From the NCBI GenBank assembly GCA_037042185.1, contig JAXQJY010000029.1, positions 1,054,001 through 1,118,000 of the forward strand: a DNA stretch of 64,000 nucleotides, written 5' to 3'. Under the pieces are notes generated by a model, which saw nothing but the letters and a program-made list of their open reading frames with translations, was not told the DNA's origin and searched no databases. The stretch comes from Sordariomycetes sp. S80-01Y (Eukaryota; Ascomycota; Sordariomycetes). The position numbers and the translations under genes were made by a program. Below, piece after piece: positions 4,781 to 23,800 of this stretch. The first letter of the stretch is position 1. Every line of letters starts with the position of its first letter.

Positions 4781-6813
4781 CTACGAGCCTTCGACAACTT
4801 GTCCAAAATTCGTGTCGCCGATTGACTCAAGAAGACATTCAGCTCCAGAGAAGCCATAGGGCCAGCCGCCCGACAGTTGGAGCCAAATGGACTGCACGCT
4901 GATCGACTTTGCTGAAGTATCTCCTGTCGCAAACTTAACGCTGGCTTGTAGATTTGGCAGCGATATCACAGATGGATAGCCATCCCCGGGCTGAGGGCGG
5001 AAGTCACCTCCATCTTCTTCCTCGTCCCCATCGCCGTCATCTCTCGAGACGCCCGGATTGCTCGCGCCCTCGAGGATATGGTTGTTAATCTCCCCTAGAT
5101 AGGCCGCCTTGTACAGGTCGTGCATGACTCCCAATGCAATAAGCCACTGCCTCGCCGCCTTCCAGGTCGACGACCAAGACGCCATGAGTTCTCGCACAAG
5201 ATCGAAATAGCGCTTCGCCCTGTCCCGATTGACTTCGTTCGAGAAGTCCGCGTCTCCAGCATACTGCAGCCATAAAAATGTGTTGGCCGCAATAAGCATC
5301 GAGGAGGAGACCCATATGCTTTGCAAGCACGCGTCCTCGCCCCCGTCCACGAGGAACTCCAGCATCGAGCCAATCTCCAGGGCGGCTGAGACGCAGGTCC
5401 CAATGATGGATGCGTCTCGGTGAAGGTACGACCACCCGGCCGCGTCTACCATGTCGACCATTCTGGTGTACGCCGTCAAGTGTGGCAGATAACACTGGTG
5501 CGCAGCACAGGATGCGCTCTGCAACAGCAGATGGATCGCGACAAACGCCCTCTGCTGGCCTAAGGCCTTCTGGTTCCTGAAGTTGTCCGTACTCCAACGC
5601 AGACCCGACGGCAGAGCGTCGCACCAAGTCTTCAGTGCTTGGTGGTTTGTAAAGAGATTACTCCTGGGGTCGACGGGCGGATACCAATCCAGCCTCCGTC
5701 TTGAATAAACCGCGAAGTCAGCCATCTCACTCCACAAAACTACGCTCTTGATCAAATAAGGTCCTAGACCCAGATCACTGGCTCTCCTTTGGTCTGCTAG
5801 ATTCTCAAGGGTGACGCCCCTCGTCTCATCTTGATAGACCAAGCTTGCGTCACTGTCGGGCAGCGCAATGCCTACTGTGTCGATGGAAATGGTGCGGTGC
5901 TTCGCCAAGAGGTAGGCGAGCATCCGGTCGAGTAGGAGACAGGCCCAGTACACGCGGCGGCGGATCTCCTGGTGTCGCAAGGAGTGGGATTGGTGGAAGT
6001 CCTTGTTCAGGCGCATGATCTCGGCCATGCGGATCGCGGACCCGACGAAGAGATAGTGTCGGGCGCCGGAGTTGGAAAGGAGCTCTGCTGTAGCGAGGAT
6101 GAGGTTTGCTTGGATGTTGATGACTTTGAAATTAGCCCAAATGGTCAAGATGGCGGACCAAACAGGGGAGAATGCTTACCACTAGGCTGATCCGACTTTG
6201 CTTTAGCCAACAGGCGAGCTTTCTGGGTATAGCGTCTCGTCACATCTCTGGCAGAAGCCAAGCCAAAATAGGTCTGGCAGTCATGGAGATCCAGGTACCG
6301 CCCACACAGCGCTACGATGGCAGAAGACAGGGCCCCGTTCTGTTTACAGTCCTGCTCAAACTCAGGACGGTAGGCGAACGAGCAGAAGTCGGTCACGAAG
6401 TGTCTTTCGAAGAACAACCCAAGACATATTTGAAATCCGCGCTCGTTATGCTCATCACTGACAGTTGCAGGCGACGGAGTTTGTGAGCCAGTAGTAGTAA
6501 CGATGTCCGGAAAGGGGTGTTCCGGTGTTGTAGGAGCCTGAGGACTGAGCAGCTGAGGCTCATGGGATGGGTTGGGACCAGGCCAGCTGCAGGAGGCGCG
6601 GCGGTTGGTGCAGTGGCCGCATCGGGGACGCTGGCCGTCGCATTTGGTTTTGCGGGCTCGACTGGAAGCGTCAGTCACACTTCGACTGATTTAGAGGCGA
6701 ATGCATGCACGTTTTGGAGAGGAGGCCCCGACACATCTGCGTCGGAAAAGGGGGCGTGAGTCCACATACCACGTGTTGCAAGCAAGTGGGGTCCTCGCGA
6801 ACCCTCGCCGCAT
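4781..6813 (-). CDS. Zn(II)2Cys6 fungal transcription factor, probable cluster regulator
   Basis: Exons in transcript order are 6813..6770, 6661..6180 and 6123..4781 (622 aa). The zinc binuclear cluster is split by the first intron: exon 1 ends ..ACNT plus TG, and exon 2 supplies T to complete the second Cys. All six Cys are present with spacing C-X2-C-X6-C-X6-C-X2-C-X6-C (C12, C15, C22, C29, C32, C39). The long third exon has the fungal-specific TF middle homology region (for example RRRVYWACLLLDRMLA), followed by an acidic Asp/Glu-rich patch near the C-terminus. It is a nuclear DNA-binding regulator by family. It is divergently transcribed from the glucosamine-6-P deaminase gene, and the shared 687-nt promoter has two CGG-N5-CCGA sites, so I infer it controls the amino-sugar cluster and itself. 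The start was chosen as the nearest in-frame ATG to the Zn cluster. Confidence 0.88.
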
Positions 6814-6914
6814 GGTCAATCCGTTGCACTGGTACTCCTCCGTACTCGGTAGATTATTGCAGGCACCGGCCGAAGCGAGAGGATGGGTCGGGATGGTGAT
6901 GAGGGGGAGGTCGA

Positions 6915-6926
6915 CGGAAGAGCCGA
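6915..6926 (+). promoter_or_regulatory. CGG-N5-CCGA site 1
   Basis: Sequence CGGAAGAGCCGA. Inverted CGG half-sites with a 5-nt spacer, in the regulator/deaminase promoter. One of seven such sites in the cluster promoters; binding by the local Zn2Cys6 protein is inferred. Confidence 0.6.
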
Positions 6927-6958
6927 CGTCGGGGGCGGGCGGCTTGATTTATATGGAG

Positions 6959-6970
6959 CGGTAAAGCCGA
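6959..6970 (+). promoter_or_regulatory. CGG-N5-CCGA site 2
   Basis: Sequence CGGTAAAGCCGA, 44 nt from site 1 in the same divergent promoter. The spacer is purine-rich like those of sites 1 and 4. Confidence 0.6.
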
Positions 6971-7500
6971 CACTCCAGCCGAAGGGGCGTGCCGGGTGAG
7001 CCGATGGCTGGCCCCTAACACAGGTCATGAAGCGCTCTCCGCATTCCAATGCCGCCGTCAGCTTTCACAACAGCATCAAGCCGCTGTTGGCTTTGTTTGA
7101 TTGGTGTCTGCTATCATCTGGGCGTGGGAGTGGGTTGTTGATACCAGAGTGGGCCATATCGCTGGAGCCGCTTATTGAGGCTTAATCTTGAACGTCAAGG
7201 CGAGCAAGGGGGCTACTCTCATCGGATAATGCGACGCGATTATCTGATATTCTATAGGCTGGAGCTTTCTCCAGAAGGATGCGACCAATTATTGCGTATA
7301 TCTGATCCTGGAATGGAGTATCATAGGTTGTTAAAGGCTTCCGAAGAGTTAGTTGTTAGCTTCGGAAGGCTTCTTAGAATTTCACAAACTCAACGACGCA
7401 CAAGTATCTATCACTTCTGTTTCTCTTCTTCTTACTCCAGGCTCAAGAGATTTGATTACACTGCTGTTAACCGGCTTGTTGGCCCCGGGAAACTTTAACC

Positions 7501-8709
7501 ATGAGATTAGTAGTTCGAGATGAGGCTGCCTCTGCGGCCCAGTATGTCGCAGATTACATCCTGAAAAGACTGCGTGAGTTTAAGCCGACCGCAGAACGAC
7601 CATTCGTCCTTGGCTTGCCTACAGGTAGCAGCCCCGTTGGTGTCTACAAGATCTTGGTCGAGAAGTACAAGTCTGGCGAGGTATGGTGCCCTCCACGCCC
7701 ACTGACTTCCATATCGACCAGGGGTTGACATCGCACTTAGGTGTCCTTTGAAAATGTCGTGACTTTCAACATGGTACGGGATTTCATCTTCACAGAAGCG
7801 CAAGAGAAGACTGATCAGATACCGATCAGGACGAATATGTCGGCATACCACGAGACCACCCGGAAAGCTACCACTCCTTCATGTGGCGACATTTCTTCTC
7901 ACATGTAAACGTCAGGCCCGAGAACGTGCATATCCTGAATGGAAATGCATCAGATCTGGACATCGAATGCGCACGGTACGAATCTGCCATCCAGGACGTA
8001 GGTGGCATTGATCTCTTCCTCGCCGGCATCGGGGAAGATGGACATATTGCCTTCAACGAGCCTGGATCAAGCCTTGCCAGCCGAACCAGAGTTAAGACTT
8101 TGGCGTACGACACCATCCTAGCCAACTCGCGCTTCTTCAACGACGACGTGAATCAAGTGCCCAAGATGGCCTTGACCGTCGGCGTTCAGACCGTGCTGGA
8201 TGCACGAGAAGTTGTCACCATAGTTCTCGGAGCAAAGAAAGCCGTTGCGCTGCAGAGATGTGTCGAGGGCGGCGTCAATCACATGTGGACCTTGTCGGGC
8301 CTGCAGCTTCATCAACATTCGATGATTGTTGCAGACGAGGATGCGACCCTGGAGCTTCAGGTGAAGACAGTCAAGGTTCGTACCGAAGCTGACCCAAACT
8401 TAGAATTCTTTTAGGCAGTCTGCTGACTTTTTGCAGTACTTTAAATCAATTGAGAAGATAGCACTTCAGCAAGGATTCGAGCAGTCATTGCCCAGAGACC
8501 TTAGGACTCGACAGGCTCCGAAAGATGAAGAGGTGTCAATCAACATTCAACAAGTACATTCACCTGTGGCGCAGAAACCTGCTACCAACCCAATGTATCT
8601 CATGCAGTCGAACAACCCGGTGGTTGCGGAACCGGCATCGAGGGGCGTCACTCCTGAACCTATGTTGGACAGCATGGGATCTCGCATTCAGCAGGCTGTG
8701 ACCGCATGA
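7501..8709 (+). CDS. nagB: Glucosamine-6-phosphate deaminase (NagB type)
   Basis: Exons 7501..7680, 7741..7773 (33 nt), 7830..8375 and 8437..8709 give 343 aa, a normal length for fungal enzymes. It converts glucosamine-6-P to fructose-6-P plus ammonia in the cytosol, the last step of amino-sugar breakdown. The substrate loop [10 protein letters not shown] is near residue 37. The catalytic set falls at the same numbers as in E. coli NagB: D72 (in NMDEYVG), D141, H143 and E148 (in [12 protein letters not shown]). A poorly conserved tail after about residue 265 is usual in fungi. It lies head to head with the Zn2Cys6 regulator and convergent with the transporter gene. The first donor is an ordinary GTATGG and the last is GTTCGT, a weaker form. 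The family assignment is secure. Confidence 0.95.
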
Positions 8710-9070
8710 GCTTTATGTGGGGGATTGTATGTATATAATTTCGATTTATGAGAATTTCCATATTCAATACCTGAAACTCTTTTCTGGTTACGGCTGCAAA
8801 TACAAGGCGCAATCGACATAGCCTGAATGATTCGCGTAGGTCCAATGATATTGTGTGTTGACGAAATGAGTGTGTTTCAAGTAACCAGTCCGCGAAATTA
8901 ACACTATCCTTACTGAAGAAGAGCCGGATCTGAAAAGTGCTCTCTCAACCAAAAATTACGTTGGGAAGAATACTAGCCAAGCTATAGCTAACAGACTGTG
9001 ATTGTAATTATTTTCCCAATATCCGAAGATGATACACAGATGTAAGCCGGGGCCACACCTTTCAAGATCT
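8710..9070. other. Convergent 3' intergenic stretch
   Basis: A3'-to-3' gap between the deaminase and transporter genes. It is AT-rich with several TATA/AATAA-like stretches that would suit polyadenylation of both genes. No gene or site is recognised. Confidence 0.5.
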
Positions 9071-11062
9071 TCAATCTTCGACCTTCCTCGTGTCCTTCGA
9101 GACCGCGAGCTCATGAACCTCTTGGGCATCATCCAGCTTTGCCTCAGCATCATATTGCACAGCAACCATCCTCTCGGTCCGCTTGTCCTGCCACCAAACC
9201 ACGCATACCCAAAACGCAAGTGCAACACTAACCACTATCATGGTAATAGTGCCTTTGCGGAAGCCCTGCAGAATGTATATTAGTCTCCTCATCGTGGAAC
9301 ACGGAAAGCTTCTGGCACTTACAGTTGCCGCGTCAGTAGCTGGGTAGAAGGCGATGCCCCAGAAGGCGTAAAGTACGGACGACGCGCCTAGGTCAGTCAG
9401 CATCATGTTTGGCCAGGGGAATATCAGGACTGACCATTCATTGAATATAGTGTAATGGCTCGAGCGGCATCGTCGCCATCGCGTGCGAGGATTTTGTTTG
9501 CCCATACGAATACCACCGGTTGAATCAAATACGCGGTTCCGGCCATGACTATTGCAGGTTGTTAGACGAATCAAGCGACGGATCGCTGCAGAAGTACTTA
9601 CAAAAAGCGGCCATCTTGGCTCCCGCGCCAACCATATCCCAGCACATTAGGACGATACACGCCACGAGCTGAACCCCGCAGGCAAAGAAGCCAAAGGGAG
9701 CATGCATCTTTGTGGCGTCGATGGCGACCGAAGTGGCAAGAGTGAGAACAATACCTTGCGGGTGTCAGAATATAGAGCAGTAGATCGTTTGTAGGGACTC
9801 GTACCGATGGCTGTGATTCCTAGCGGATAAGTGTTGTTCTGCGGAACAGAGAACAGACCAGACGCCTTCATCCACAGTACCATGCACGTCTGCGTGGAGT
9901 AGGCCTCCAATGCACCGCCCAGCATCCAGAAAATGTTGAATATCCAACTGTAGGAATCGTTAGCTGGGTGTCCTTTTGAACGCTGGGGTGGCTTACAAGT
10001 TAAGTGTGAACAGCACGCGCTTCACGAGAGACGGGCCGATGTTGTGACCTTCTGGGTTCTTGGGTGGCAGCCGGCTCAAGGCAAGTTCTCGCTCGGCGGG
10101 CTTCAAGTAGAAGGCCTTGGTAGACTCAGGGAGGTCGGGAAAGAAGACGAAGCCGAACACCGCAACCGGTAGTGTGATGACACCGTTGATAATGAATGAC
10201 TGCAAACCGACAGATGTTAGTCTTAGCTCATCGAGGGTGATTTGACGTTTACTGACCCATTTCCAACCAGGGAGCCCCCCGAGCCCATTCATCGTGTTCC
10301 AGATGGCGGTCATCATGATGCCGGCAAACATGGTGCCCACCATGCCAGAAGCTTGGAAGAGGCCGATGCGCTTCCCGGCCTCAGACCCCTTGTACCAACT
10401 TCCGATGATATACTGTGTGCCGCTATACGTCGAAGCCTCGGCAATTCCCTGCAGGAAACGGACAGCTGCGAGCTGAGAATAACTGTTGCACGCCGCGCAC
10501 ACCATGGTGAGAGCAGCCCAGACAACGGTCATGAGCGGGAACCAAATTCGAGGTGCAATCTTCTGGATGACAAGTCCATGCGGTACCTGACCGACAATAT
10601 CTAAGGCAGTCAGCATCTTCATCATAATGCTTTCAAGAGTAGGGTCCCTACAGCCGACGGCCAAACAAGTGACAAGAATGTTATACTGGTTGCCCGTGAT
10701 GCCAATATCCTCCTTCATACCCGATACGTACGCATTGGCAAGTACGGCGCGGTCTTTGGCCCTGTTAATCCCCCATGTTCTGGTTCTCTGTTTCGGAAGA
10801 TGATCTCAAGGACATACCTAGGTAGTTGAAGAAGAAGGCAACACAGCAGTAGGTCTTGGGAGCGCTGTCAGTTTGTCGTAGATAGACCCGCTCAGGAGAA
10901 AATTGCATACCAAGATAAAGAAATCAATCTTACGAAGGAGCTGTTCCGTGCGTCAGTGAAGCTCTGCACTATCAAGCGAGAAAGCCGTACCTTGCGCTCC
11001 TCGGGAGACTCCGGTGCCTCTCCCCACACGGCCACGCGAAATTTATGAGCCCTGGCACCCAT
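9071..11062 (-). CDS. MFS transporter, Dal5/allantoate-permease (ACS) family
   Basis: Eleven exons in transcript order: 11062..10991, 10940..10911, 10854..10818, 10753..10652, 10600..10257, 10199..9997, 9947..9805, 9754..9602, 9548..9435, 9387..9323 and 9265..9071. They give 485 aa and, by family, about 12 TM helices. Family hallmarks are KIDFFILTYCCVAFFFNYLDR before and in TM1, NAYVSGMKED after it, and FLQGIAEASTYSGTQYIIGSWY in the TM4-5 region. Members are plasma-membrane symporters for organic anions such as allantoate, nicotinate, pantothenate and ureidosuccinate. The gene is head to head with MurQ and flanked by amino-sugar genes, so I infer that it imports an acidic amino sugar such as (anhydro-)MurNAc. 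The start is the only in-frame ATG before exon 2. The 30- and 37-nt exons make this gene easy to mis-annotate. Confidence 0.9.
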
Positions 11063-11515
11063 TGCGATATCTCGGCACGGATTCAAGGTGAGGGAGAAGA
11101 ATTCTAGCTGTGAATTGTGTCTTTCGAAACAGCCTGGAGGGTGACAGTGGACAAGGAGAGCGGCTGTAGTCTCTTCACAGCTTTAAGAAGGACGACCAAG
11201 GCAGTCAGAAGGTTAAAAGGTCCAGCTAGCGGCTCTGATACGCGAATGATAGGCTTCTCCGCATTCTGGGAGACCAAGACCCTAGATACCCCTTATCTCT
11301 CTCCACAAGGCTATTGGGGCGGCCGGGATGAAGGTCGTGGAAGGGACAAGGAACAGAGGGGGCAGCTATGGAGATGTGGTGCCACAGCCGCTATCGTGGC
11401 TACTGTGAGCGATATTGCTGTCCAGACGCGGCCACAAGTCAAAGTGTTGACAACTAGAGCCAAGGAGGCGCTACCGATAATCGCAGTGGAAGTTCCCTTG
11501 TCCAGGTGACCAGAA

Positions 11516-11527
11516 CGGGATATCCGA
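11516..11527 (+). promoter_or_regulatory. CGG-N5-CCGA site 3
   Basis: Sequence CGGGATATCCGA in the transporter/MurQ promoter. The identical 12-mer recurs at site 5 in the AnmK/NagA promoter. Confidence 0.65.
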
Positions 11528-11596
11528 TCGGCCCCGCAGTCATCGCCGAGGTGGATCTACATCTCGGCCGGATGTGGGACTATCTACGGGGCTGTC

Positions 11597-11608
11597 CGGA
11601 GAAGCCGA
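11597..11608 (+). promoter_or_regulatory. CGG-N5-CCGA site 4
   Basis: Sequence CGGAGAAGCCGA, 81 nt from site 3 in the transporter/MurQ promoter. Confidence 0.6.
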
Positions 11609-12054
11609 CGTTGCACCAGCAGCTGCCGTACGAGCACCCGTCTGCCTATCGGGTGTCGTGATTTGAGGGACATCGCGATGGCAAGAGACTGCATGTCTTC
11701 TCCATCTTTGCTGCCTTCCAAGCTATCGAGTTGCTCTAGCAGTGTGTCAAGTCCGGGGTCCGAGGCTTTGCTTTGCTCCTTGCCACCTTGCATCGGCCCT
11801 TTACTGTTGCATCCGGAGGTCCCATAACGGATTATTTCCCAGTGAACAGAGCTGGCGGATGTGTCTACGGGTTGTTTAGATTGCTCGGATCTTTAAACTC
11901 GCGCTTGGATCTGAGGCACATCACTTTGCGTACATCGTTTCCACGGGGTCTCACTGCGAACCGGGAATTGCAAATTATCGACGCAGTCCTCGCGGTATTC
12001 GAAGCGCTTCACAAGGAGTTGTTACTATCGCGCTCAGAGATTTGGCGTTCGAAA

Positions 12055-13294
12055 ATGCCGGCCTCTATATCGCTTGCGTCCTCGACGGACAGTCTTGGCA
12101 GCCTTCAGACGGAGCAGCGCAACCCAAAGACCGAAAGAATCGACAAGATCTCCTCGCTCGAGCTTTGCAGTAAGTACCATTTTCTCATAGCCTCGAATTC
12201 AAAGTACTCAAGGAGATATTTCCAGAAATTATCAATGATGAAGATGCTTCTGTTTCAAAAGCCGTCAAAGCCTGCCTACCGGAGATCGCAAAAGCTATCG
12301 ACGCAATTGTTCCAAGAATCAGGAAAGGAGGTAGAGTCGTGTACATGGGAGCAGGTACCAGCGGAAGGTATGGGATTGCCCTTTGGCAAGAAAGTTAAGC
12401 ATTAGCTAATCTTCTCTGGAGACTCGGGATTTTGGATGCCTCGGAAATGTAGGTGACCCGATGCAGTGATATCTGATAAGAAGTGCTGACGATACGCAGC
12501 CCTCCCACGTTTTCAGCTCCATCAGGGCAATTCATTGGTCTCATAGCAGGGGGTGACTATGCCATCCGTCATGCCGTCGAAGGCGCTGAGGACTCAGAAA
12601 AGGCTGGCGAGGCTGATCTGACGATCTTGGAGCCGCCACTAGGCCCAAACGATGTCGTCGTGGGGATCGCCTCCTCTGGCCGGACGCCGTATGTGCTTGG
12701 GGGATTGGTGTACGCCCGGGCTGCGCGGGCAGTCACTGTTGGCCTTGCATGCGTGAAGCCGAGTCTTCTCGACGGTCATTGCGACATCCTTATAGAATGC
12801 GTTACAGGACCAGAGGTCGTAACGGGAAGTACAAGGATGAAGGCTGGAACGGCAACTAAGATGGTATGGAGCTTGGTGTATTCATGGAAATTCAGCTAAT
12901 GGCGACAGGTTCTTAATATGATCTCCACTGGATCTCAGGTCGGCGCTGGAAAGACGTACGGGAATCTTGTGAGTACTAGCGCTCCCTATGGTGTTGTGGC
13001 AGTAGATCTGACCGACTATCGTAGATGGTGGACCTCAAAATGTCGAATGAAAAGCTCAGAGATCGAGCCCGGCGGGTCATTCGCGCTGCCGTTCCGTCCA
13101 CAGCAGCACTTGACGTGGCAGACGATGACGCGTTGGACGAAATATTGGCCCAGTGTGATGGAAGGGTTAAGCTCGGCATCTTAATCACGATTTTAGGCTG
13201 CTCACCGAGTGAGGGCGAGGCCATACTAGAAGCCGCAGAGGGCTCTTTGAGGCTGGCGCTGGAATTAGAAGAGTCATTAAAGTTGGCAGTATAG
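12055..13294 (+). CDS. murQ: N-acetylmuramic acid 6-phosphate etherase (MurQ)
   Basis: Exons 12055..12169, 12226..12367, 12422..12448 (27 nt), 12500..12863, 12909..12968 and 13025..13294 give 325 aa, against about 300 in bacteria. It cleaves the lactyl ether of MurNAc-6-P to give GlcNAc-6-P and D-lactate. Visible family signs are TEQRNP near residue 19, the SIS-domain phosphosugar loop [15 protein letters not shown] (residues 80-94), and EGAED (122-126). E94 and E125 have the same 31-residue spacing as catalytic Glu83 and Glu114 of E. coli Mur[14 protein letters not shown] and the C-terminal helical segment [18 protein letters not shown] complete the family pattern. The start was chosen because upstream codons in frame lack ATG. 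Five spliceosomal introns show it is a resident fungal gene and not contamination. The alternative, a GKRP-like regulatory SIS protein, is less likely given both Glu residues and the neighbours. Confidence 0.93.
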
Positions 13295-13541
13295 ATAATA
13301 GACTCAGGAAGCCATCCAAGGAGTATTTGCATCTCGGAGCTTTTAGGAATAACAAACGATTTACAAACGACTTATCTGGGTTGACTTTTACATCAGTGAT
13401 CTCGTAACGCTCCTTTCAAAGACTTCACAAAAATAACCTGTTCACAAAGGCGCAAACGAGGTGACCAATTTTGAGACAGGTTCATGTTGATCAAGGTAGT
13501 CCTTATGTGATAATGATTCCGCGTTAAACTGCGTACGAAAG

Positions 13542-14963
13542 CTACATTTTCACAAACCCGAGAACCTTGCTCTCTCCAAACCCAGCGTCACCTGCAACCT
13601 TCTTCAGAACACTGTGGTAATTCTCACCAGGGGTGACCAACCCCATAATAGCCGGCTCCTGGGATTCCGCATCCGCCGGTAGCGGAACACGCCACCCCAT
13701 AACGCACAGGAAACCCAAAAGCGCGAACATGACAGCCTCTTTCGCACTTGGGTCCATCTTAATCGGTGCTTCGTCCAGCTTCAGGACCCGGCTATGAGGG
13801 AACCTCGCCTGCAGATGCTTGAGAATGTTGGGATTGTGAGCACCTCCCCCACAAATATAGATCTCTGCGATGTCGCTGTTCAGCTGAGGCAGCACGTGTT
13901 GCTCGTATGCCCTGGCGATAGACTCCGCGGTGATCCGGGTTATAGTGGCTATTATCGCCTCATTCGACTTGCCGCTGGCTTGAAGCTTCTTGACCAGCTC
14001 ACGCGCGACATCGTCAGAAAACAGCTCGCGGCCGGTTGTCTTCGGCGGCTTGATTTTGAAATATAGCTCCGAATTGAGGAATTCGTCCACAAAGGTCTCG
14101 TCAATCTGGGACTCCCCTTGTAGGCCGAGACCACCGTCGCGGTCGAAGTGCTGCTCACCGTTTGTCAGAATGCGCATAGCAGCGTCAATGAAGACATTGC
14201 CAGGACCGGTGTCAAAAGCCAAGTATCCCCAGTCCAAGTCTTCGTTGCTGAACCTGCCGGTTGCCGGGAGAACAGATGCATTCCCTACTGGCTGTGAGAA
14301 CATGGCAGAAATCTGTATTGGGATGCATACCTATCCCTCCTATATTTTGGCTTATCCGAGTCATGGATGCATGGCACAGAAGAGCATACTCAAAGAATCC
14401 AGATAAAGGAGCTCCTTGACGTCCCGCTGCCAACTCTGCTACTCGAAATCCGCTCGTGACAGTTCTGGTATAACGTCAGCCGGTGCCCTGATTATGCTTT
14501 AATATCTACCAACTTCTTTGTGGCGTGAGCCATCACGGCAGGCTCCGCCATCTGCAGTGTTGACTTTTGCTCCCCTATAGGCTGATGCCACAGTGTCTGG
14601 CCGTGACTGGCAATGAGATCAACATCGTCCAGACTAACCCCCGATTCCAAAATGGCGCGCGAGAACTCTCTCCCCAGCGCAAAGTTCAGGTCACAGACCT
14701 CTGCCATGGAGGTGCTAGCATCTTTCTGATTTGGCCGACATAGGCGCAAGACCTGCGCACGGATTTGCGCAGAGACGGGGACCTCTGTGTAAGAAAGCAG
14801 CTCAATCTTCACATCACTAGAGCCTTCAAGTGTTGAAATGCGGCAATGTGCAACATCAATACCTGCCCTATTGTGTAAGTAGAGAATACGCAGTCTGTAA
14901 TCAAAGTTGCTCACCGTCAACACTCGTACCACAGTTCAGGCCGAGGACGTTTAACGTTACCAT
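13542..14963 (-). CDS. anmK: Anhydro-N-acetylmuramic acid kinase family (AnmK)
   Basis: Exons in transcript order are 14963..14915, 14862..14514, 14464..14331 and 14284..13542 (424 aa). AnmK hydrolyses and phosphorylates 1,6-anhydro-MurNAc to MurNAc-6-P, the substrate of MurQ. Motifs are GLNCGTSVDGIDVAHC (near residue 8; nucleotide loop, bacterial GLMSGTSxDGID), ASHGQTLWHQP, RVAELAAGRQGAPLSGFFE, NIGGIGNASVLP, and AFDTGPGN with D202 at the place of the E. coli catalytic Asp182; ICGGGAHN lies near the C-terminus. Its 3' end faces MurQ and its 5' end faces NagA. The second intron uses an unusual GTTGGT donor, chosen because it alone restores the frame to TVTSGFRVAE. The family also contains yeast levoglucosan kinase, a real alternative; adjacency to MurQ favours the anhydro-MurNAc role. 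Confidence 0.9.
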
Positions 14964-15241
14964 TCTCCTGACGTTCGATTGAGACTTTTAAGGCGTAGAG
15001 ATTCATCCAAGAGTGTGGCTTTCGTTCAGGACAGATGGTCAATGGTGCAAGGCTGGACGTGGTGTGGCATCAATTTGAGCCATTGGTGTCCATCAAAACG
15101 GGACGCAAAATGATTGAACAGGCAATGTCGTTTGCGATCGCGCTTGCAGCTGTCAAACCAACATCTGCACCTGAAACTGGACACGATCATCCCCACACGC
15201 CTGGTAGCTGACTCGCTCCCTGAGCCCACACCGCAGACGCC

Positions 15242-15253
15242 CGGGATATCCGA
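15242..15253 (+). promoter_or_regulatory. CGG-N5-CCGA site 5
   Basis: Sequence CGGGATATCCGA, identical over 12 nt to site 3, in the AnmK/NagA promoter. Confidence 0.65.
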
Positions 15254-15365
15254 CACCGGAGCATTGACGAACTGCCACCCTCTTCCACTAGGGTAGTTTT
15301 AAGCCCAGACCTAGATCTGGACCGCCCGTGCGTGAACGCCAAGCTTCTCTTCTTCGGGGGCTTTA

Positions 15366-15377
15366 CGGGATTGCCGA
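15366..15377 (+). promoter_or_regulatory. CGG-N5-CCGA site 6
   Basis: Sequence CGGGATTGCCGA, 124 nt from site 5. Confidence 0.6.
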
Positions 15378-15687
15378 TGCTGTGAAGCGCGATGGGGCAT
15401 TGATTGGGAATTCCTATCGGTTAGAGCTAACACGTGGGGAGCACATTTGCGTAGTTGAAGTTGCCCGAGTTCGAAAAGAAGCTCCTCATGCTTGGTACAA
15501 GTCTCTAAAAGTGAATGATGAAAGAACCGAGACAAATTAGCTTTGGAATGCAAACTGATAACCAACCCAGAAAGTCCAGTCACGAAATCTCAATTCTGGT
15601 CAGTAGTCGAAGATTGAGGTCGATTATCTTGTCCTTTGCCTCTACCATCCGTTAAAAGGGAGCCTCCGTCCTGCTGCAGAAGACAAC

Positions 15688-17166
15688 ATGCCTGGCGTCA
15701 TTGCGTCAAGTAACTCGTCGACGATCACCAAGTTCACCAACTGCCGGCTATTTCGCCAGGACCAGCTTGTCAACGAAGATCTCTGGGTCAGTTCCCTGAC
15801 CGGGAAGATTCTATCAAGCCAGGCAACCTTCTTCGATGGCGGCATCGTTCCTGACTGTGTCATTGACCTTGGGGGTCGCATTATATCACCTGGGCTGATA
15901 GATGTTCAACTCAATGGGGCCTATGGCTTCAATTTCTCAAGCTACCCAGATACAGAGGACGAGTATGTAAAGGCCGTCGGAGACTTGAACAGACGACTTG
16001 TTGAGACTGGAGTAACATCTTACATGCCTACACTCACAAGTCAAAACAGTGATCTGTACCAGAAGGTGAGGCTTTCCACCCTACCAATTCACCGATCTCT
16101 ATGAATACTAACCGCAGAAGGTGCTACCTTTACTCTCTCCACGAGGCGTGAGAAAGGCTGAAGATGGGGCTGAATCACTAGGTGCCCATGTTGAGGGACC
16201 CTTCTTGAGTCCCGAAAAGAATGGCTGCCACGACCGGACAGTCATTCGAAAGGCCGAGACTCTCAAAGACATCGAGGGTTGCTACGGAACCGGAAATCTC
16301 GGGCCAAAAGTGAGCTCAACAAGTGGTCTGGGATGTCCCTTGATTCGCAAGATCACTGTCGCCCCTGAACAAGGACGTATGATGGAGCTCATCCCAGAGC
16401 TAACGTCGCGAGGAATTATCGTCTCGATAGGTCATTCCGATGCTACGTACGAAGAGGCTTATCAAGCTGTTTCATCGGGCGCCACTATGATCACCCACCT
16501 CTTCAATGCAATGAAGCCGCTCCATCATCGCAACCCTGGCATATTCGGACTTCTCGGTACAGTTGAACCAATCTTGCCCAGGCCTTACTTCGGGATGATT
16601 GCCGACGGAATCCATGTTCACCCGACTGCGGTCAAGCTTGCTTACAACGCTCATCCGGAAGGCTTCATCTTGGTTACGGACGCAATGCATCTTGTGGGGC
16701 TTCCAGATGGGCCCTACACTTGGACAAATGGCGATTCGCCCAGTACGATTGTGAAGAGTGGCCCAGTATTGTGCCTTGAAGGCACCGACAGGATAGCGGG
16801 AAGGTGAGTTAACCGCTTGAAAACGTCCAGGGGATCTGCTAAAGATCTTCAAATAGTTCTATAACTCTCATTGAGTGCGTCAACAATTTCATTCAATGGT
16901 CCAGCGAGCCGATAGCCAAGGCCTTGAGGTCTGTGACTGCCACACCGGCCGCTCTGTTGGGTATTGGTCATCAGAAGGGCTGCCTGGATGCCGGCGCAGA
17001 CGCTGATATCGTAATCATTTCAGAGGAAGGAGCAGAGGCTGGTAGAACACAACTTCTCGTGGACGAGGTTTGGAAATTTGGCGTTCGGGTTCATAAACGG
17101 GAAGAGGTTGACAGGTCCGGGGCAGGGTCTCTGGTGGCGCCACGCCATGAGACAGACATGAATTAA
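15688..17166 (+). CDS. nagA: N-acetylglucosamine-6-phosphate deacetylase (NagA/Dac1)
   Basis: Exons 15688..16065, 16118..16803 and 16857..17166 give 457 aa. It removes acetate from GlcNAc-6-P to give glucosamine-6-P, linking MurQ to the deaminase. It is an amidohydrolase-superfamily metal enzyme. Visible elements are ISPGLIDVQLNG at the first strand, GAHVEGPFLSPEKNGCH with the metal-ligand Glu, IGHSDATYEEA and THLFNAMKPLHHRNPG with the metal His residues, GMIADGIHVHP, and VTDAMHL with the catalytic Asp. The C-terminal IAGSSITLIECV and LDAGADADIVI are typical. A stretch near bases 16300-16350 (PKVSSTSGLGCP) does not match the family well but stays in frame. It is head to head with AnmK. Confidence 0.94.
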
Positions 17167-17532
17167 ACATGTCGTATAGATAGGAGAACCATCAAGAAGA
17201 TGGGAAGTGAAGGCAGAGCCGAGCATCGATGTCCACATTCCCAAATCTAGACAACGCGTCTCAGTTTTGGGACGACGCAATGGCGCCTCTTGCCTTCGCC
17301 AACGTTAAGCACTGCTAGTCTTGGGACTATAGAAGCGTGGAAGATATTATATCAATGTAATTTGTAGGCTAAATTTCTTTGCAATACTTCAAGCTCTTAG
17401 AAAAGTAGGGGAGAAACCTGACCCGTATCTAGATCACCGAGCCCTAGGTGCAATACAGCTTTCAGAGGCTTGACTAGACCAACTGTATGTAAGCTCAGAG
17501 ATAAAGACAGGACTTCGAGCACCTGTTATCAA
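17167..17532. other. Convergent 3' intergenic stretch
   Basis: The gap between the 3' ends of the deacetylase and the serine hydrolase. It is AT-rich around 17340-17400 and suited to 3' UTRs. No gene is recognised. Confidence 0.5.
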
Positions 17533-18813
17533 TCATCCTGGAAACTCAACGTCCCGGCCCAAAGCCTTCGCTACCCAGTATCCTGCTGCCCTTCTGGCTG
17601 GATTGTTTGATCCAAAGTACCTGCTTGGGTGGACACGGTTGCTGAAATGCAACCAGAATGTATCGCTAGGGCGGTCAATAGCGAGAGTCGTACCAGTAAA
17701 CCCTGAATGACTCGCCGTTTGCAGGCTCTGCATGCTACCTTGCGTATAAGATTGGTTGAGCGCGAAGCCAGCGCCGTAGTTGTTGCCCGGGAAGTCCCCG
17801 TTGAAATCGGTGAAGATGAGATCGACCGATTCCTTCGACAGAACGCGCTGACCGTTGTAAGTGCCATTGTTGAGAATCATTTGACAGAAGATCGCGACGT
17901 CTGAAACAGTCGAGAACACGCCTGCATGACCGGAAACGCCGTCAAGCGCCCATGTGTTCTCATCGTGAACAGTCCCGCGAACTGGCTGGGGCCTTTGAGG
18001 CTCTTCAGGTCCCTGAGCCTCAATCTCGAACTCGGTGGGTGCAGTCCGAGAGTAGTAAGGGTTCAGAGGGCCCTCAAGGTTTCCCCTATTGAAAAAGGTT
18101 GTCTTCATACCCATGGGGATTGTGAAGGAATAAATGAGCATGTCGTGGCTCATCCCTGTCACACGTTCCAGCAAATAGCGCAAGGTCATGAAACCAATAT
18201 CGGAGTAGATGAACTCGGTATTTGGAGGACTCTGAGGCTCAAGGGTTAGGAGGGCGTCGGCTCTCTCATCGATGGACGAGTAGGTTGAGTTCCAGAGGTT
18301 GGGGATGGGATCCGGGAAAAGCCCACTTGTATGTGTAAGACAGTCGATAATGGTGATGTCTTCTTTACCGTTGGCCGCAAACTCGGGGAGATGCGACGCA
18401 ACAGTGTCGTTCAGAGAAATAACGCCTGCGTCGACTTGCCGAAGGACAGACACAGCGGTAAACAGCTTCGAGAGACTGGCCAGGTCGTAAATTGTATCCT
18501 GAGTGGCGTCCTCTTGATCGGCTTCATCCAGATAAGTGCCATTGGCATCCGCGTACAAATTCCTCTTGCCCGCAGCGAAGTGACTGACGATGACTCCATG
18601 ACGGGCAACCAGATTGACAGATCCGGGTTCCAGCGGAAAGTCATCATCCTTAGCTTCAGTATATGCCGTTAGATTGTGTACCATCTGCTCCAGCGGTTCG
18701 GCCAGCAAGTCAACCGATTCGGGCGACCCATTTTTGAGCTTCCGATCACATGAAGCTTGAGAAATAACCGCGAGGGTTGACAACCCCCAGTATACATGTG
18801 TTTTGTAGTGCAT
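17533..18813 (-). CDS. Secreted serine hydrolase of the class C beta-lactamase fold, AmiE/YbbE-like
   Basis: A single exon of 426 aa with a probable signal peptide (residues 1 to about 22). The three motifs of penicillin-recognising serine hydrolases are present: S113-L-S-K116, Y203-S-D205 and H369-S-G371 (in HSGFTGTTLAID). VHDENTWALDGVSGHAG and FSNRVHPSRY match, from memory, the subgroup containing Bacillus YbbE/AmiE, a secreted MurNAc-L-Ala amidase encoded beside murQ and nagZ. I infer that this protein may strip peptides from muropeptides outside the cell before uptake of the sugar. D-aminopeptidase, esterase or general beta-lactamase-like activity remain possible. It is the last gene of the cluster and has its own CGG-N5-CCG site 236 nt upstream of the start. 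Several N-x-S/T sequons fit secretion. Confidence 0.85.
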   Translation of the reverse strand: MHYKTHVYWGLSTLAVISQASCDRKLKNGSPESVDLLAEPLEQMVHNLTAYTEAKDDDFPLEPGSVNLVARHGVIVSHFAAGKRNLYADANGTYLDEADQEDATQDTIYDLASLSKLFTAVSVLRQVDAGVISLNDTVASHLPEFAANGKEDITIIDCLTHTSGLFPDPIPNLWNSTYSSIDERADALLTLEPQSPPNTEFIYSDIGFMTLRYLLERVTGMSHDMLIYSFTIPMGMKTTFFNRGNLEGPLNPYYSRTAPTEFEIEAQGPEEPQRPQPVRGTVHDENTWALDGVSGHAGVFSTVSDVAIFCQMILNNGTYNGQRVLSKESVDLIFTDFNGDFPGNNYGAGFALNQSYTQGSMQSLQTASHSGFTGTTLAIDRPSDTFWLHFSNRVHPSRYFGSNNPARRAAGYWVAKALGRDVEFPG

Positions 18814-19536
18814 GTTTGGTGGTGTATTTGATAGTTGGGGAAATTAGTATGGATGCGTGATGGAGCGACTCGGGTCCTTTATTGGAACACAGGATGAGAT
18901 AGGTAATGCTGGTTCTACGCTACTGAGTAGATGTGAGGTTGCATTGCGGAGATGAACTGCATACAGGCCCATCAGCCGACTGAGAGCCCAACGTATCATT
19001 GCCGTTCTCAGCTATAGGCAGTCATTCCCCAACCACACTCCGAGATATCGGGTTTTCCGCGTGTTGATCCCGGTTCCGGGTTCTCCTCATAACCATGCAC
19101 ATAACCGAAGTCAGTAAAGCCTCTTCCTAGACTGCAAGCGTGATGGCCACTCAATCCAATGATGCACTCTTTCCGCTTACACATCTCTCTTGTCGTCGCA
19201 TCCGCAACCTGTGTCGTCTATTTCCTAGCCTGCAGATATGCAGAATGTCATAGCTAAACGATATAAGAGAAGCAAGCAGTTAAGGAGCCATTGCATGCTG
19301 TCGGCCTGGGCAGAGCCTGCGATTTATCGGAGTTACATATCGAGGTCTAAGTTACAGCACCTGCTTAGGCTTCGTAAACTTCTGTTGGTCAAAGCGGACA
19401 AGAGAATATCGCGGATTAATACTTTCAGGGGCACCAATGTCGCTTAGAGGTAGTCGCACAAGAGTGAGCACCTTGATATCCTCTGTCAAGGGTGCTAGCT
19501 GCTATTCTCAATCGCTTCATGCCTATGCAGCCATTT
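18814..19536. promoter_or_regulatory. Upstream region of the serine hydrolase gene
   Basis: 723 nt between the hydrolase start and the 3' end of the SDR gene. It holds a CGG-N5-CCG at 19049 next to CCGAGATATCGG, an everted arrangement. No gene is seen. Confidence 0.5.
19049..19060 (+). promoter_or_regulatory. CGG-N5-CCG site 7
   Basis: Sequence CGGGTTTTCCGC upstream of the serine hydrolase. It is the only one of the seven sites lacking the final A, so it is the weakest. Confidence 0.45.
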
Positions 19537-20376
19537 TCAATACATTGCCCACCCTCCACTTGCAGACAAGGACTGGCCTGTAACCCAACGACTCTCCTCA
19601 GAAGCCAACCACGCCACTATTTGGGCCACATCGTCCACCGTACCCAACCGCCTTTCAACAGGCGTTTGTTTCTTCTGCATACTGACAATATCCTGGGGGA
19701 TATTATCCAACATTTCGCTTTGCACCGGCCCGGGATTGACCGTGTTGACGGTGTGTCCCTCATCTCCCAGCTCGGCCGCCCAGCATCTCGTCATGCCCTC
19801 CAGGGCCGCTTTTGAGGAGCAGTAGAGGGACAGATCTTTGAATCCCGCCCGTGCGCCCACTGATGCTATGTTGACAATTCGACCCGGCGCTCGCAGATAG
19901 GGCTTTACCGCTTGGAGTAGGAGCAAAGGAGCCCGCACGTTCAGATGGTAGACTGAGTCGAAGTCTTCAACTGTGAGCTCAGTCGCGGGCTTGACGATTT
20001 CGCAGCCTGCGTTGTTGACGAGGATGTCAATGTGTGAACCAAAGGCAGCGGTCGCTCGTCGGACGATTTCAGTTGGTGTCGAAGGGTCTCGCAGGTCGGC
20101 TCTGACGCCGATGCACCTTGAGGGCTTGCTCAAGGATGCGATCTTCTCTGATAGCTCCAGAACTTTCTTTTCGCTTTGAGGCGAAGTATATGTTGCGACA
20201 ATCTGCCACACTTAGCGGGATTCTCCCAAAGCCAGTCTACAATGCTGACTGACCTTTGCTCCTCTGCGGGCCAGCTCGAAGGCGAAACCAAGTCCCAGTC
20301 CCCTAGAAGCACCCGTCACTATTGCGACCTTCCCTTCAAGGGTCTGAAAGTCGCTGTTGTTCTGCAGCCTGTCCAT
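19537..20376 (-). CDS. Short-chain dehydrogenase/reductase, 262 aa
   Basis: Exons 20376..20254 and 20202..19537, with a 51-nt intron. It is a classical SDR: cofactor loop TGASRGLGLG near residue 21, NNAG, catalytic Ser in NIASVGARAG and Y-x-x-x-K in LYCSSKAALEG, then the usual PG motif (NPGPVQSEM). The C-terminus SRWVTGQSLSASGGWAMY is typical of FabG/glucose dehydrogenase-like members that form tetramers. An NAD(P)-dependent oxidoreductase of unknown substrate. The start is the first ATG of the open frame. Although it sits beside the amino-sugar cluster, its upstream region has no CGG-N5-CCG, so membership is doubtful. Confidence 0.92.
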
Positions 20377-20828
20377 CTCAAAGGCTCGGATGCGGTCACG
20401 AACAGTCTTGTCAAAGGGGTCGATGATGAATTGCCGGTCAGTCTGGAGGCCGCAACGCTTTGGCTCTTTTATGTCCGAGTCTCGAACAGGTGTACGGCTC
20501 TGCCGTGCGAGACTGACACGATGCTCTAACACCGAAGGCGAAGCGCATGATGATTCGGCGTTAAGGGTGGACCTTGACGATCCGCATGTTTCGGCGATTA
20601 GGGGCAATTGGTCTGGGCTTCGGTTTTTAGAAGTCCAGCGCAAGTACGCCGTAGGTCGATCCAGAAAACACAATGGTAGACTGAGGCTTACGCTCCATAC
20701 ACAATGGGAGAAATTGATACGTGCAGCTGAGTCAAATTCCCGATTCACCAAAGACCATTAAACCATTCCACCGAAGAAGAAAATCCATCAGTGACCCAGC
20801 ACTGCAGGCGTTCCACCGACGCATTCCC
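20377..20828. other. Upstream region of SDR gene, with repeated TTCGGCG
   Basis: 452 nt between the SDR start and the 3' end of the large gene. It carries TTCGGCGTTAAGGG at 20554-20567 and a further TTCGGCG at 20590-20596. The 14-mer recurs upstream of the second SDR gene at 29185-29198. Confidence 0.45.
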
Positions 20829-23800
20829 TCAATTCACCGTGACAGACTCCGTAAACCCTCCAGTGTAGTAATGAAGCGACCAACTCTGCTCCGTCTCATT
20901 CGTCTTCGCCTGTTCCTCCGACAGTTCACCGCTCACAGTTCCCGAAATCTCAGCCAACCACCTCAAAACAGGTACACTCTTACCTCCGATCTCGCCTCCC
21001 AACTTCCAAGCATTCATGACCTCACTTCCCTTCTTGTTGGACACCTTGAATTCCTCAGTGAAGGCAGTCACCGTGGCCGTGGCAACATTCGCCTTCTCGA
21101 AGACAGATCTAGGGATCTGTATCATGATGCCCTTGGAGGTTTGGAGTCCTTTTCCAGTGACGACTTCCAAAGCAGGCACATTCGTGCCCATAAGCCGGCC
21201 TTCGAGATGGAAGTTGTACGTCTCCGCCGTGTTCTCGTCAAATGGGAACGACATGAGGATACGGCCGTCTGCGTAGAGCAGCTCGACCTTGCTTTGGGCG
21301 AGGATCTTGTCCACATTCACGAATGGCTGCTCTTCATTCGGTTTCATCGGAGGCTGAACTGGCGTCTCGATGATTTGAGACTGTGTGAGATTCCACTTCC
21401 AGAACCCTTGAAGAGGCAGCCCTCCATAGCCTATGAGACGGACAACCAGGCCGCGTTGTTTGGGTGCAGGCGGCTTCGGCTTTACGCCTTTAGTGTTGCC
21501 GATGGCATTCTGAACGTTCTGCTTCTTCTGGTTCTGGGTGATGTTACCCTTCTTGGCGTTGTCCTCCACCATTTTGATGACTTCCTTGGTCTCTTTGACG
21601 GTTTGCTCCGACTCCGTAGGAGCTGCGGGCTGCACGCCATTTGTCTGGGCCGCGCTCTCATTGATGTGCTGCCTGCCGTCCTCCTTGGTCATCAGATCGC
21701 TGTCAACCGCCTTCTTGACCGACGCAATCTTCTTGTCCAGATCATTGGTTGCCTGCTGCTTGTTGGCCATCTCGGCAATCTTGACAGCTGCCGCTGTCCC
21801 TCCGAACGTAGTAGCGAGAGCGGCGGCAGTTTCCAAGCCCTTGGCCGCGAGACCTTGTGTTCCTGCAAGCCCAGCCATATCGCGGAACGCGTTCCCATTT
21901 TGAACCGCGCCTAGAACGCCGCCGAGACCCTGTGGTGCGGGCGCAGGCATGGCGTTTTGAAGGTTGATGAGCGTTTCCGGCATTTTTGAAGGCTCGAGCT
22001 CGCCTGGATCGGCGCGTCTGGACATCAAAAGGCTAGGATCGATCATTCCAAGTTCAGGATCAGGGTCGTTGAGGGCCCAATCGGTATTGCCATAGTGATC
22101 TTCTAGAGCACCACATTCGTCCATGATGGTCTGGGCGTAGAGACCGTCGGTAGGCAGACTGATATGCATGGGATCTGATTTTGGTCCCTTAGGCTTGTAC
22201 CATGCATCAAGAGCCTCTGAGGTGTCGAGAGCCGCATTGCCAATCGCAGTCCCAATGAAACACCCTGCGGACACGCGGAAGATGAGACTGTTCCCTGCAA
22301 CTCCAATGGGGTTCCGCTCCACGACAGATGCCACGCTGGTCTCGGGCTTCACTCCAGGGACATAAAAGCCGTCCAGAAGCATGAAAAGTCGGTCCCGATC
22401 CATGGTCCACCAGATCATGCGATGGTAGTGCTCAATATTCTCGTTCAAGTGCTGCAGAAGTTCCACAACTTCGTAGACGAGCTCTGCCCGCAGATTCTGG
22501 AGATCATACTGGGTCAGCGGTTGCTGAATAAAGGCACCATTGGTATCGATGTCTCCAGTGGAAGGATGCACCAGGTCTCCAATACCCTGGCTAGCAGACA
22601 TGCTCCGTGTCTCATAATCGGTCTGGTATGTGTATGTAAGGCTTCGAAGGTGAGCAACCGACCCGGGAGCCAAGGTCTCTCCCGCCCTCACCATAATCGT
22701 GGTTAGCATCGACCGGTTGAGCGATCCGGGGTTAGCGACCTGGAAGTCAATCCTAACAGTCCTGTTAAAGCTGTATGTGGAAGCGAGAGTGAAGTCCGCA
22801 TCAATCTTAGTGCCGTTCGCTGCGTAAAGTTCTAGGCTGTTGCACCATTTTGCGGCGATTCCAGGTGCGAAACGGCGCTGGAACTCGAATTCACGCATGC
22901 CCTCCACTGTCCCAAGCTGAGACCAGATACCGAATGCAGGAAATCCCAGAAGGCGATTGATTCGATCCCATGCTTGGAAATTGAACTCGCCCTTGGTCAG
23001 GTCACCAGGCCTGGACACACCGAGTTCGATGTACACGGAGCCATATAGGGACCGCATCTGGTGGACAGCCCGTGTCTTCGGGGGGATCTTGGAGAATCTG
23101 AAGGACGTAAGGACATCCTTGAGGTGTCGCATCGTTTTGACAAAGCGCCTAGAATTCAATTCGTTTAGCGCACAGTGGCTCTCAAGAAAAAGGCAGACTG
23201 ACCGATCCAGAAGCGATCTCTGAATACTTTCCCTCCACCGATATGCCCGAGGCATCGTCCAAACTTTCATCGCAAAGGGCACAAAAAGACACTCCCTTGC
23301 GCCGCCAAACTCTGTGTCAACCCTGTAGTGGCGCAGGATGTTGTGGTATATCACAGTGAGGCTGTGAGCGTAGTTGACATTGCGAATGACTTCCACCGTC
23401 CCGGTCACGTTCTCGGTCTGACGAATCTCTTCGACGACCGTGCTTTCGAATTTTCGCAAATCATCACCATGTCTTCGAAGGGCATCACGCCACTGGCTCT
23501 CTTCCTTGGCGGTTGTTGCACGGCCTCCCTCCTGTTGAGATTTGGAGCTGGAGGAAGAGTGAGCTACACCTCCGCCGATGGCTACAGGCCCGAGGATGGC
23601 ACCCGCCCCAGCGGCAGCGGAGGTCACTTTGCTGCTAGAACTGCCACGAGCCCATTCATTCAGGTTAGCAGCGACTGCATCTTGATAAGAAGTCTCTCGT
23701 GTTGAAGAATCGTTCACGTTCCCAGATGAGATCTGGTCTTCATCGCGAGCGGCCCTTTCTGAGCGAGACCATTCAATCTTCTGGATGCCTGTGGGGTTCA

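Follow-up and report, generated by a model that had tools for sequence, protein, structure and literature searches.

Muramic acid is diagnostic of bacteria, and what is known of its breakdown comes mostly from bacterial species. Whether a fungal chromosome can carry genes dedicated to such catabolism is the question raised by seven neighbouring genes that lie within 14 kb of a chromosome of Sordariomycetes sp. S80-01Y. They are located in the window, that is, the whole 64,000-nt stretch of DNA analysed here, as follows.

4781..6813, minus strand: Zn2Cys6 (Gal4-type) regulator; 3 exons (6813-6770, 6661-6180 and 6123 to about 4781), 622 aa; Zn_clus and Fungal_trans
7501..8709, plus strand: NagB, glucosamine-6-phosphate deaminase; 4 exons, 343 aa; TIGR00502
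9071..11062, minus strand: MFS transporter; 11 exons, 485 aa; best family match, D-galactonate transporter subfamily
12055..13294, plus strand: MurQ, MurNAc-6-phosphate etherase; 6 exons, 325 aa; TIGR00274
13542..14963, minus strand: AnmK/levoglucosan-kinase family kinase; 4 exons, 424 aa; PF03702
15688..17166, plus strand: NagA, GlcNAc-6-phosphate deacetylase; 3 exons; TIGR00221
17533..18813, minus strand: beta-lactamase-fold hydrolase, YfeW/PBP4B-related; single exon, 426 aa

The gene models are fungal and were assembled from GT-AG introns, and families were assigned using the curated equivalog cut-offs of NCBIfam (TIGR models) and the Pfam cut-offs; models and family matches together confirmed the seven-gene cluster that a preliminary description had placed here. 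Six of the seven genes contain introns, the hydrolase gene alone being a single exon, and the genes flanking the cluster are eukaryotic (NPC1, VPS13 and Stu2), which argues against a bacterial contaminant. A search for relatives of MurQ and the kinase in viral contigs returned none.

MurQ, NagA and NagB all scored above their equivalog cut-offs, with 353 bits against TIGR00274 (cut-off 302), 247.9 bits against TIGR00221 (cut-off 225.65) and 399 bits against TIGR00502 (cut-off 236.9), respectively, and as judged by these curated thresholds the three proteins are genuine. The MurQ protein shares 48% identity with its E. coli counterpart and retains 50 of the 55 columns that are at least 90% conserved among 25 prokaryotic MurQs; it deviates at two columns that are invariant in those 25 (Asn167 to Val and Met213 to Gln). 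The catalytic residues Glu83 and Glu114 are present in the window protein and in all 25 prokaryotic sequences. NagA, whose length of 456-457 aa is set by the acceptor chosen, retains 7/7 metal-binding or catalytic residues (E131, H143, H195, H216, N219, H251 and D273), and NagB retains the catalytic residues D72, D141, H143 and E148. Compared with E. coli NagB, which entered the comparison minus its first 37 residues, the window NagB differs at three of the 11 positions shown (43, 138 and 184).

The kinase matched the Pfam AnmK family PF03702 with 230 bits (cut-off 24), a match that cannot tell AnmK from levoglucosan kinase, and with none of the 14 NCBIfam AnmK models listed did its score reach the cut-off (342 bits against a required 387 for the best of them). 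Among solved proteins it comes closest to levoglucosan kinase (344 bits versus 144 for AnmK), that of Lipomyces starkeyi (chain 4yh5), with which it shares 45% identity and the GRQGAPL and NGEQ stretches. It was also placed as sister to levoglucosan kinase with a support of 100/100, in a tree that holds a single levoglucosan kinase sequence and 15 rows of unlike composition and whose bootstrap had not settled; the same tree singled out no bacterial neighbour as donor of the kinase. The name AnmK, given without qualification in the preliminary description, could thus not be upheld. By contrast, two AnmK residues lost in levoglucosan kinase are kept in the window protein: H100 as H109 (present in 58/58 bacterial AnmK-family proteins) and Q109 as Q120 (57/58). 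The Leu119 and Thr133 that replace this His and Gln in levoglucosan kinase are absent from it. Across 60 conserved AnmK columns, the window kinase retains 50 and levoglucosan kinase 51.

Two other positions of the kinase have changed. Asp132 of AnmK, present in 58/58 bacterial proteins, is Glu143 here, and the Asp of the DFR motif is Gly, so that the earlier statement that catalytic residues are in place holds for MurQ, NagA and NagB and only partly for the kinase. That the change in DFR marks a dead kinase was considered and rejected, because this position varies in bacteria (D in 39, N in 7, Q in 2 and H in 1 of the 49 among 58 proteins with a readable motif pattern) and because the Asp of FDxGPGN (182 in AnmK, where it has a functional role; 212 in levoglucosan kinase) is kept.

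The hydrolase matched the Pfam Beta-lactamase family with 183.5 bits (cut-off 27), all three motifs SLSK, YSD and HSG were found, and its N-terminus, judged by eye, resembles a signal peptide. By alignment it is related to YfeW, with 31% identity to the E. coli protein over 415 aligned columns, and its score against the PBP4B/YfeW model PRK03642 (143 bits) is far under the equivalog cut-off of 385. In the annotated E. coli record, yfeW sits directly after murQ-murP, making it the product of a murQ-linked gene. The transporter scored 123 bits against MFS_1 (cut-off 33.4) and 121 bits against the galactonate model TIGR00893, far under the cut-off of 395; of the solved structures, that of the D-galactonate transporter comes closest to it (chain 6e9n; 42 bits, residues 27-215), a kinship that fits an acidic sugar as substrate.

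The promoter regions of the cluster contain a common element, an inverted CGG-N5-CCG site, at the following positions.

6814..7500: divergent regulator/NagB promoter; sites at 6915, 6959 and 6993
11063..12054: divergent transporter/MurQ promoter; sites at 11516 and 11597
14964..15687: divergent kinase/NagA promoter; sites at 15242 and 15366
18814..19520: hydrolase upstream region, its far boundary being our choice; one site at 19049

The element is present in 4/4 cluster promoters, which hold 8 of its 20 copies in the window although they make up 4.9% of it (3,110 of 64,000 bases). After correction for the 75 patterns tried, at least eight copies with all four promoters matched arose in 0.27% of 1,500 Markov shuffles (4/1,500) and in 2.3% of 5,000 relocated interval sets; the uncorrected estimate for CGG-N5-CCG, 1 in 10,000 relocations, ignores the number of patterns. 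A match of any of the 75 patterns to all four promoters at any count was common (10% of shuffles and 24% of relocations). The extended form CGGN5CCGA occurs on one strand at 8/8 cluster sites versus 4/12 elsewhere (p 0.004, post hoc); across the whole window it is not enriched (12 found versus 9.7 expected). A tighter consensus, CGGGATATCCGA, with at most two mismatches had nine sites in the window, just three of them in cluster promoters, and no exact word of 9-12 bases was common to three or more cluster promoters. Being common to the four promoters, the element, which goes beyond the preliminary description and is new here, suggests that the cluster genes are co-regulated through it, with the Zn2Cys6 protein as the probable controller of all seven by way of these sites.

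From these assignments a route can be proposed. Outside the cell, the putatively secreted serine hydrolase of YfeW/AmiE type would free small muropeptides of their stem peptide, and the MFS protein, of anion-symporter type, would take up the carboxylate-bearing sugar, MurNAc or anhydro-MurNAc. The AnmK-family kinase may then open the 1,6-anhydro bond to yield MurNAc-6-phosphate, which is the weakest step. MurQ is predicted, from a strong family assignment, to convert MurNAc-6-phosphate to GlcNAc-6-phosphate and D-lactate, and NagA and NagB, likewise from strong assignments, to take GlcNAc-6-phosphate on to fructose-6-phosphate with release of acetate and ammonia. A scan of 26 proteins and frames found no muramidase, NagZ, lytic transglycosylase or hexokinase. 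The predicted route is complete just from intracellular anhydro-MurNAc to fructose-6-phosphate, and because the scan returned no upstream wall-cleaving enzyme, the cluster does not deserve to be called a complete salvage cluster, as it had been. Moreover, bacterial AnmK requires anhydro-MurNAc, so that MurNAc freed by the amidase would be without a kinase here. The earlier proposal that the fungus feeds on bacterial wall sugars thus survives in part: MurQ, NagA and NagB, the kinship to YfeW and the common promoter element speak for it, whereas completeness and an unqualified AnmK drop out. Judged from sequence, we give a probability of about 0.7 to the reading that the cluster would serve a dedicated, co-regulated fungal pathway that breaks down the muramic-acid sugars of bacterial peptidoglycan.

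Other readings were weighed against it. The kinase could be a levoglucosan kinase and the cluster a composite, in which genes for anhydroglucose use and for amino sugars are neighbours and peptidoglycan plays no part. The relationships of the kinase given above agree with this, and so do reports on its fungal namesakes: in PMC9476349, which names the Lipomyces starkeyi levoglucosan kinase, AnmK-named fungal proteins were tested in yeast as levoglucosan kinases (of six proteins assayed, four bore that name, and only the R. toruloides protein was clearly above the empty-vector control); in A. nidulans an AnmK-named gene adjoins one for an MFS protein (PMC8762651), and in Zymoseptoria such a gene has both a regulator and an MFS gene in its vicinity (PMC7317419). 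However, the window kinase retains the His and Gln that levoglucosan kinase has lost, levoglucosan use requires no MurQ, NagA or NagB, and the kinase and NagA have a common divergent promoter with CGG-N5-CCG sites; we therefore consider a composite cluster unlikely.

The locus would be an ordinary cluster for the use of GlcNAc from chitin if MurQ and the kinase were accessory or decaying passengers. Fungal GlcNAc catabolic genes, which include hexokinase, Ngt1 and Ron1, have the NagA and NagB steps in common with the window cluster; PMC12584764 describes a DacA deacetylase and a NagA deaminase in A. fumigatus. Yet neither hexokinase nor an Ndt80-type regulator such as Ron1 is among the seven genes, whose regulator is of Zn2Cys6 type, and MurQ, the AnmK-family kinase and the hydrolase are extra. 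Since MurQ is open across six exons with both Glu residues retained, and kinship ties the hydrolase to a murQ-linked protein, this reading is quite improbable. Still harder to credit is that MurQ, instead of being an enzyme, senses sugar phosphates as a regulator in the manner of the animal glucokinase regulatory protein (GKRP). GKRP descends from MurQ, and in Pfam the window protein scores highest against the GKRP N-terminal SIS model (82 bits), but the protein is one MurQ-length unit with an equivalog-level MurQ score and its two Glu residues, and MurQ chains (262-277 bits) outscored GKRP chains (at most 82 bits) by far.

A muramic-acid cluster, our preferred reading, can be compared with the bacterial systems. 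The E. coli genes murR-murQ-murP-yfeW, anmK and nagBA match the cluster in MurQ, a YfeW-related hydrolase, an AnmK-family kinase, NagA and NagB, but there the genes lie at three places and uptake is by the PTS protein MurP (from the annotation), whereas here one intron-bearing eukaryotic cluster holds them, with an MFS transporter and a Zn2Cys6 regulator. Muropeptide rescue in Bacillus subtilis involves NagZ, AmiE, MurP, MurR and MurQ; a secreted beta-lactamase-fold amidase is linked to MurQ there, which by description resembles the putatively secreted hydrolase here. Unlike in B. subtilis, NagZ/NamZ was not found in the scanned proteins and frames, and a kinase replaces PTS phosphorylation. 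Among the literature matches listed, no paper dealt with fungal MurNAc catabolism by its title or the start of its abstract, and the excerpted text of a Fusarium graminearum peptidoglycan-exposure study (PMC4889655) contained no mention of an etherase.

As to how the cluster arose, we lean slightly towards the view that a eukaryote assembled a single co-regulated cluster for peptidoglycan muramic acid (a hydrolase trimming peptides outside the cell, acidic-sugar symporter, kinase, MurQ, NagA and NagB) from genes of bacterial descent, the kinase belonging to the levoglucosan-kinase clade with a kept or regained AnmK-like pocket, and gave it a Zn2Cys6 regulator of its own, with CGG-N5-CCG as operator. 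The pairing of MurQ and an AnmK-family kinase as neighbours, together with this operator, would provide a marker to look for in other fungi, and the cluster would help clarify the functional relation of fungal levoglucosan kinases to AnmK. If the muramic-acid reading is true, the fungus could use bacterial wall debris as a source of carbon and nitrogen, and feeding on bacterial walls would become a genetic, testable trait.

Seven gene models, built from GT-AG introns, make up three divergent gene pairs and a hydrolase gene. Their order across approximately 4.8-18.8 kb and their surroundings are as follows.

Minus strand: Zn2Cys6 regulator
Plus strand: NagB
Minus strand: MFS transporter
Plus strand: MurQ
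Minus strand: AnmK-family kinase
Plus strand: NagA
Minus strand: beta-lactamase-fold hydrolase
Left end of the window: NPC1
Right of the cluster: HET-domain gene, VPS13, Stu2/XMAP215 and a G-patch/GCFC protein
19537-20400, minus: short-chain dehydrogenase gene, adjoining the hydrolase gene on its far side
20829-25643, minus: adjacent long open frames of 990 and 610 aa, without any Pfam family match
33123-34088, plus: frame resembling a pectate-lyase-type protein by eye, without a Pfam match as an open frame

Introns interrupt six of the seven cluster genes, with six exons in the MurQ gene and 11 in the transporter gene, which argues strongly against a bacterial contaminant as the source of the cluster. 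The HET-domain gene to its right points to a filamentous ascomycete as the likely source.

The preliminary description had named MurQ, NagA and NagB with their catalytic residues, and these assignments held. MurQ scored 353 bits against TIGR00274 (cut-off, 302), was 48% identical to E. coli MurQ and retained Glu83 and Glu114. Solved MurQ chains matched it at 262-277 bits, compared with at most 82 bits for glucokinase regulatory protein chains. When compared with 25 prokaryotic sequences (E. coli MurQ and 24 database sequences, one labelled as an archaeal MAG, leaving out locus L025, which was too short, and L035, which duplicates L023), it retained 50 of the 55 columns conserved in at least 90%. 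Two of the five columns lost, Asn167 (Val in the window protein) and Met213 (Gln; numbered as in E. coli), are invariant in the full set. The MurQs of 25 database loci, whose titles span many phyla, were 37-52% identical to the window protein; relatives of the kinase occurred in two of these loci (L001 and L023) and relatives of the hydrolase in two (L008 and L014), with flank length varying among loci. In the Elusimicrobiota MAG locus L023 (2840-4820), murQ and an AnmK-family gene on one strand have stop-to-stop frames that overlap, which gives this pairing a bacterial example. NagA exceeded the TIGR00221 cut-off (247.9 versus 225.65 bits), was identical to the E. coli protein in 122 of 370 columns and retained all seven residues checked. 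NagB, which scored 399 bits against TIGR00502 (cut-off, 236.9), was identical in 144 of 229 columns to E. coli NagB taken without its first 37 residues and retained all four positions that we take to be catalytic.

The same description had named the kinase AnmK. It matched Pfam AnmK, but its nearest solved chain was levoglucosan kinase (344 bits, versus 144 for P. aeruginosa AnmK). When 60 sequences, including a single levoglucosan kinase, were placed in a tree, the two came out as sisters with 100/100 support in a bootstrap that had not settled. In a published study, six proteins, four of them fungal and named AnmK, were assayed in yeast for levoglucosan kinase activity, and only the R. toruloides protein clearly exceeded the empty-vector control (PMC9476349). 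Since the AnmK name alone thus proves nothing, we compared the kinase with 58 bacterial sequences labelled by family membership only: P. aeruginosa AnmK and 57 distinct sequences from 59 loci, excluding L038 (a different region), L044-L046 (matches below the cut-off) and L059 (a fragment). In one search 74 of 80 genomes matched, and loci were drawn from 30 of the 74. Among 60 columns conserved in at least 85%, the window kinase retained 50 and levoglucosan kinase 51, so the total does not tell them apart. The window kinase retained four columns that levoglucosan kinase has lost, His100 (58/58), Gln109 (57/58), one Pro (88%) and one Leu (90%); conversely, levoglucosan kinase retained five that the window kinase has lost, including the invariant Asp132 (Glu in the window kinase). 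Gly137 is Arg in both. The Asp of FDxGPGN, presumably the catalytic base, is present, but the DFR Asp is replaced by Gly, so that the proposed set of catalytic residues is only partly intact. On our reading, the kinase belongs to the fungal levoglucosan-kinase clade but has a pocket like that of AnmK; of all the steps in the proposed pathway, the one that depends on its substrate is the least secure.

The hydrolase carries SLSK, YSD and HSG motifs. Its best NCBIfam match was PBP4B (143 bits, under the cut-off of 385), and it shared 31% identity with E. coli YfeW across 415 aligned columns. The genes murQ, murP and yfeW follow one another directly in E. coli K-12; the fungal cluster likewise contains MurQ and a YfeW-related hydrolase. 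The transporter best matched the D-galactonate transporter subfamily (121 bits, under the cut-off of 395) and gave 42 bits across 189 residues with the solved D-galactonate transporter chain 6e9n. Because MurNAc, unlike GlcNAc, has a carboxylate, a transporter of the acid-sugar type would fit MurNAc uptake.

All four cluster promoters, whose limits come from the gene models apart from an outer limit past the hydrolase that we set ourselves, contain the inverted repeat CGG-N5-CCG. Eight of the 20 copies in the window lie within these promoters, which occupy 4.9% of its length. Corrected for the 75 arrangements of Zn2Cys6-type repeats tried, occupation of all four with at least eight copies occurred in 0.27% of 1,500 Markov shuffles and 2.3% of 5,000 relocated interval sets; occupation of all four at any copy number was not rare (10% and 24%, respectively). 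The form CGGN5CCGA on one strand accounted for 8/8 promoter copies versus 4/12 elsewhere (Fisher p 0.004, post hoc), was not enriched across the whole window (12 observed, 9.7 expected), and a tighter consensus placed three of nine window matches in the promoters. A copy lacking the CCGA form lies at 20495, near the short-chain dehydrogenase start. The repeats are fair evidence that the seven genes form one regulon, probably controlled by the linked Zn2Cys6 regulator.

In the literature searched, which included few subscription papers, we found no account of fungal MurNAc catabolism; an earlier description is possible. Term searches in papers that deal with how Trichoderma reesei and Aspergillus fumigatus use GlcNAc returned no mention of muramic acid (PMC12176254, PMC12584764). 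Parts of the cluster are not unique to Sordariomycetes sp. S80-01Y, since single annotations have been published elsewhere: murQ in Monascus purpureus (PMC9159588), and AnmK-named genes in three other fungi. The one in A. nidulans adjoins an MFS gene (PMC8762651), the one in Zymoseptoria has both an MFS gene and a regulator nearby (PMC7317419), and the one in Ophiostoma novo-ulmi is induced in mycelium (PMC4632067). In Aspergillus and Zymoseptoria, these neighbourhoods may just as well represent levoglucosan clusters.

The salvage route had been called complete; the predicted pathway is so only from intracellular anhydro-MurNAc onwards. A Pfam scan of 26 proteins and frames, which included several long frames without a family match and left out further short ones, revealed no NagZ, NamZ, muramidase, transglycosylase or hexokinase. 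If the external hydrolase yields MurNAc and not anhydro-MurNAc, a MurNAc-competent kinase would be required, a capacity that is hypothetical for the cluster kinase. The best reading of the sequences is that the cluster serves to break down muramic-acid sugars derived from the walls of bacteria: a sugar would be imported and phosphorylated, MurQ would remove D-lactate, and NagA and then NagB would lead to fructose-6-phosphate. The fungal gene cluster is real and unusual, and it arranges a known bacterial pathway in a new way.
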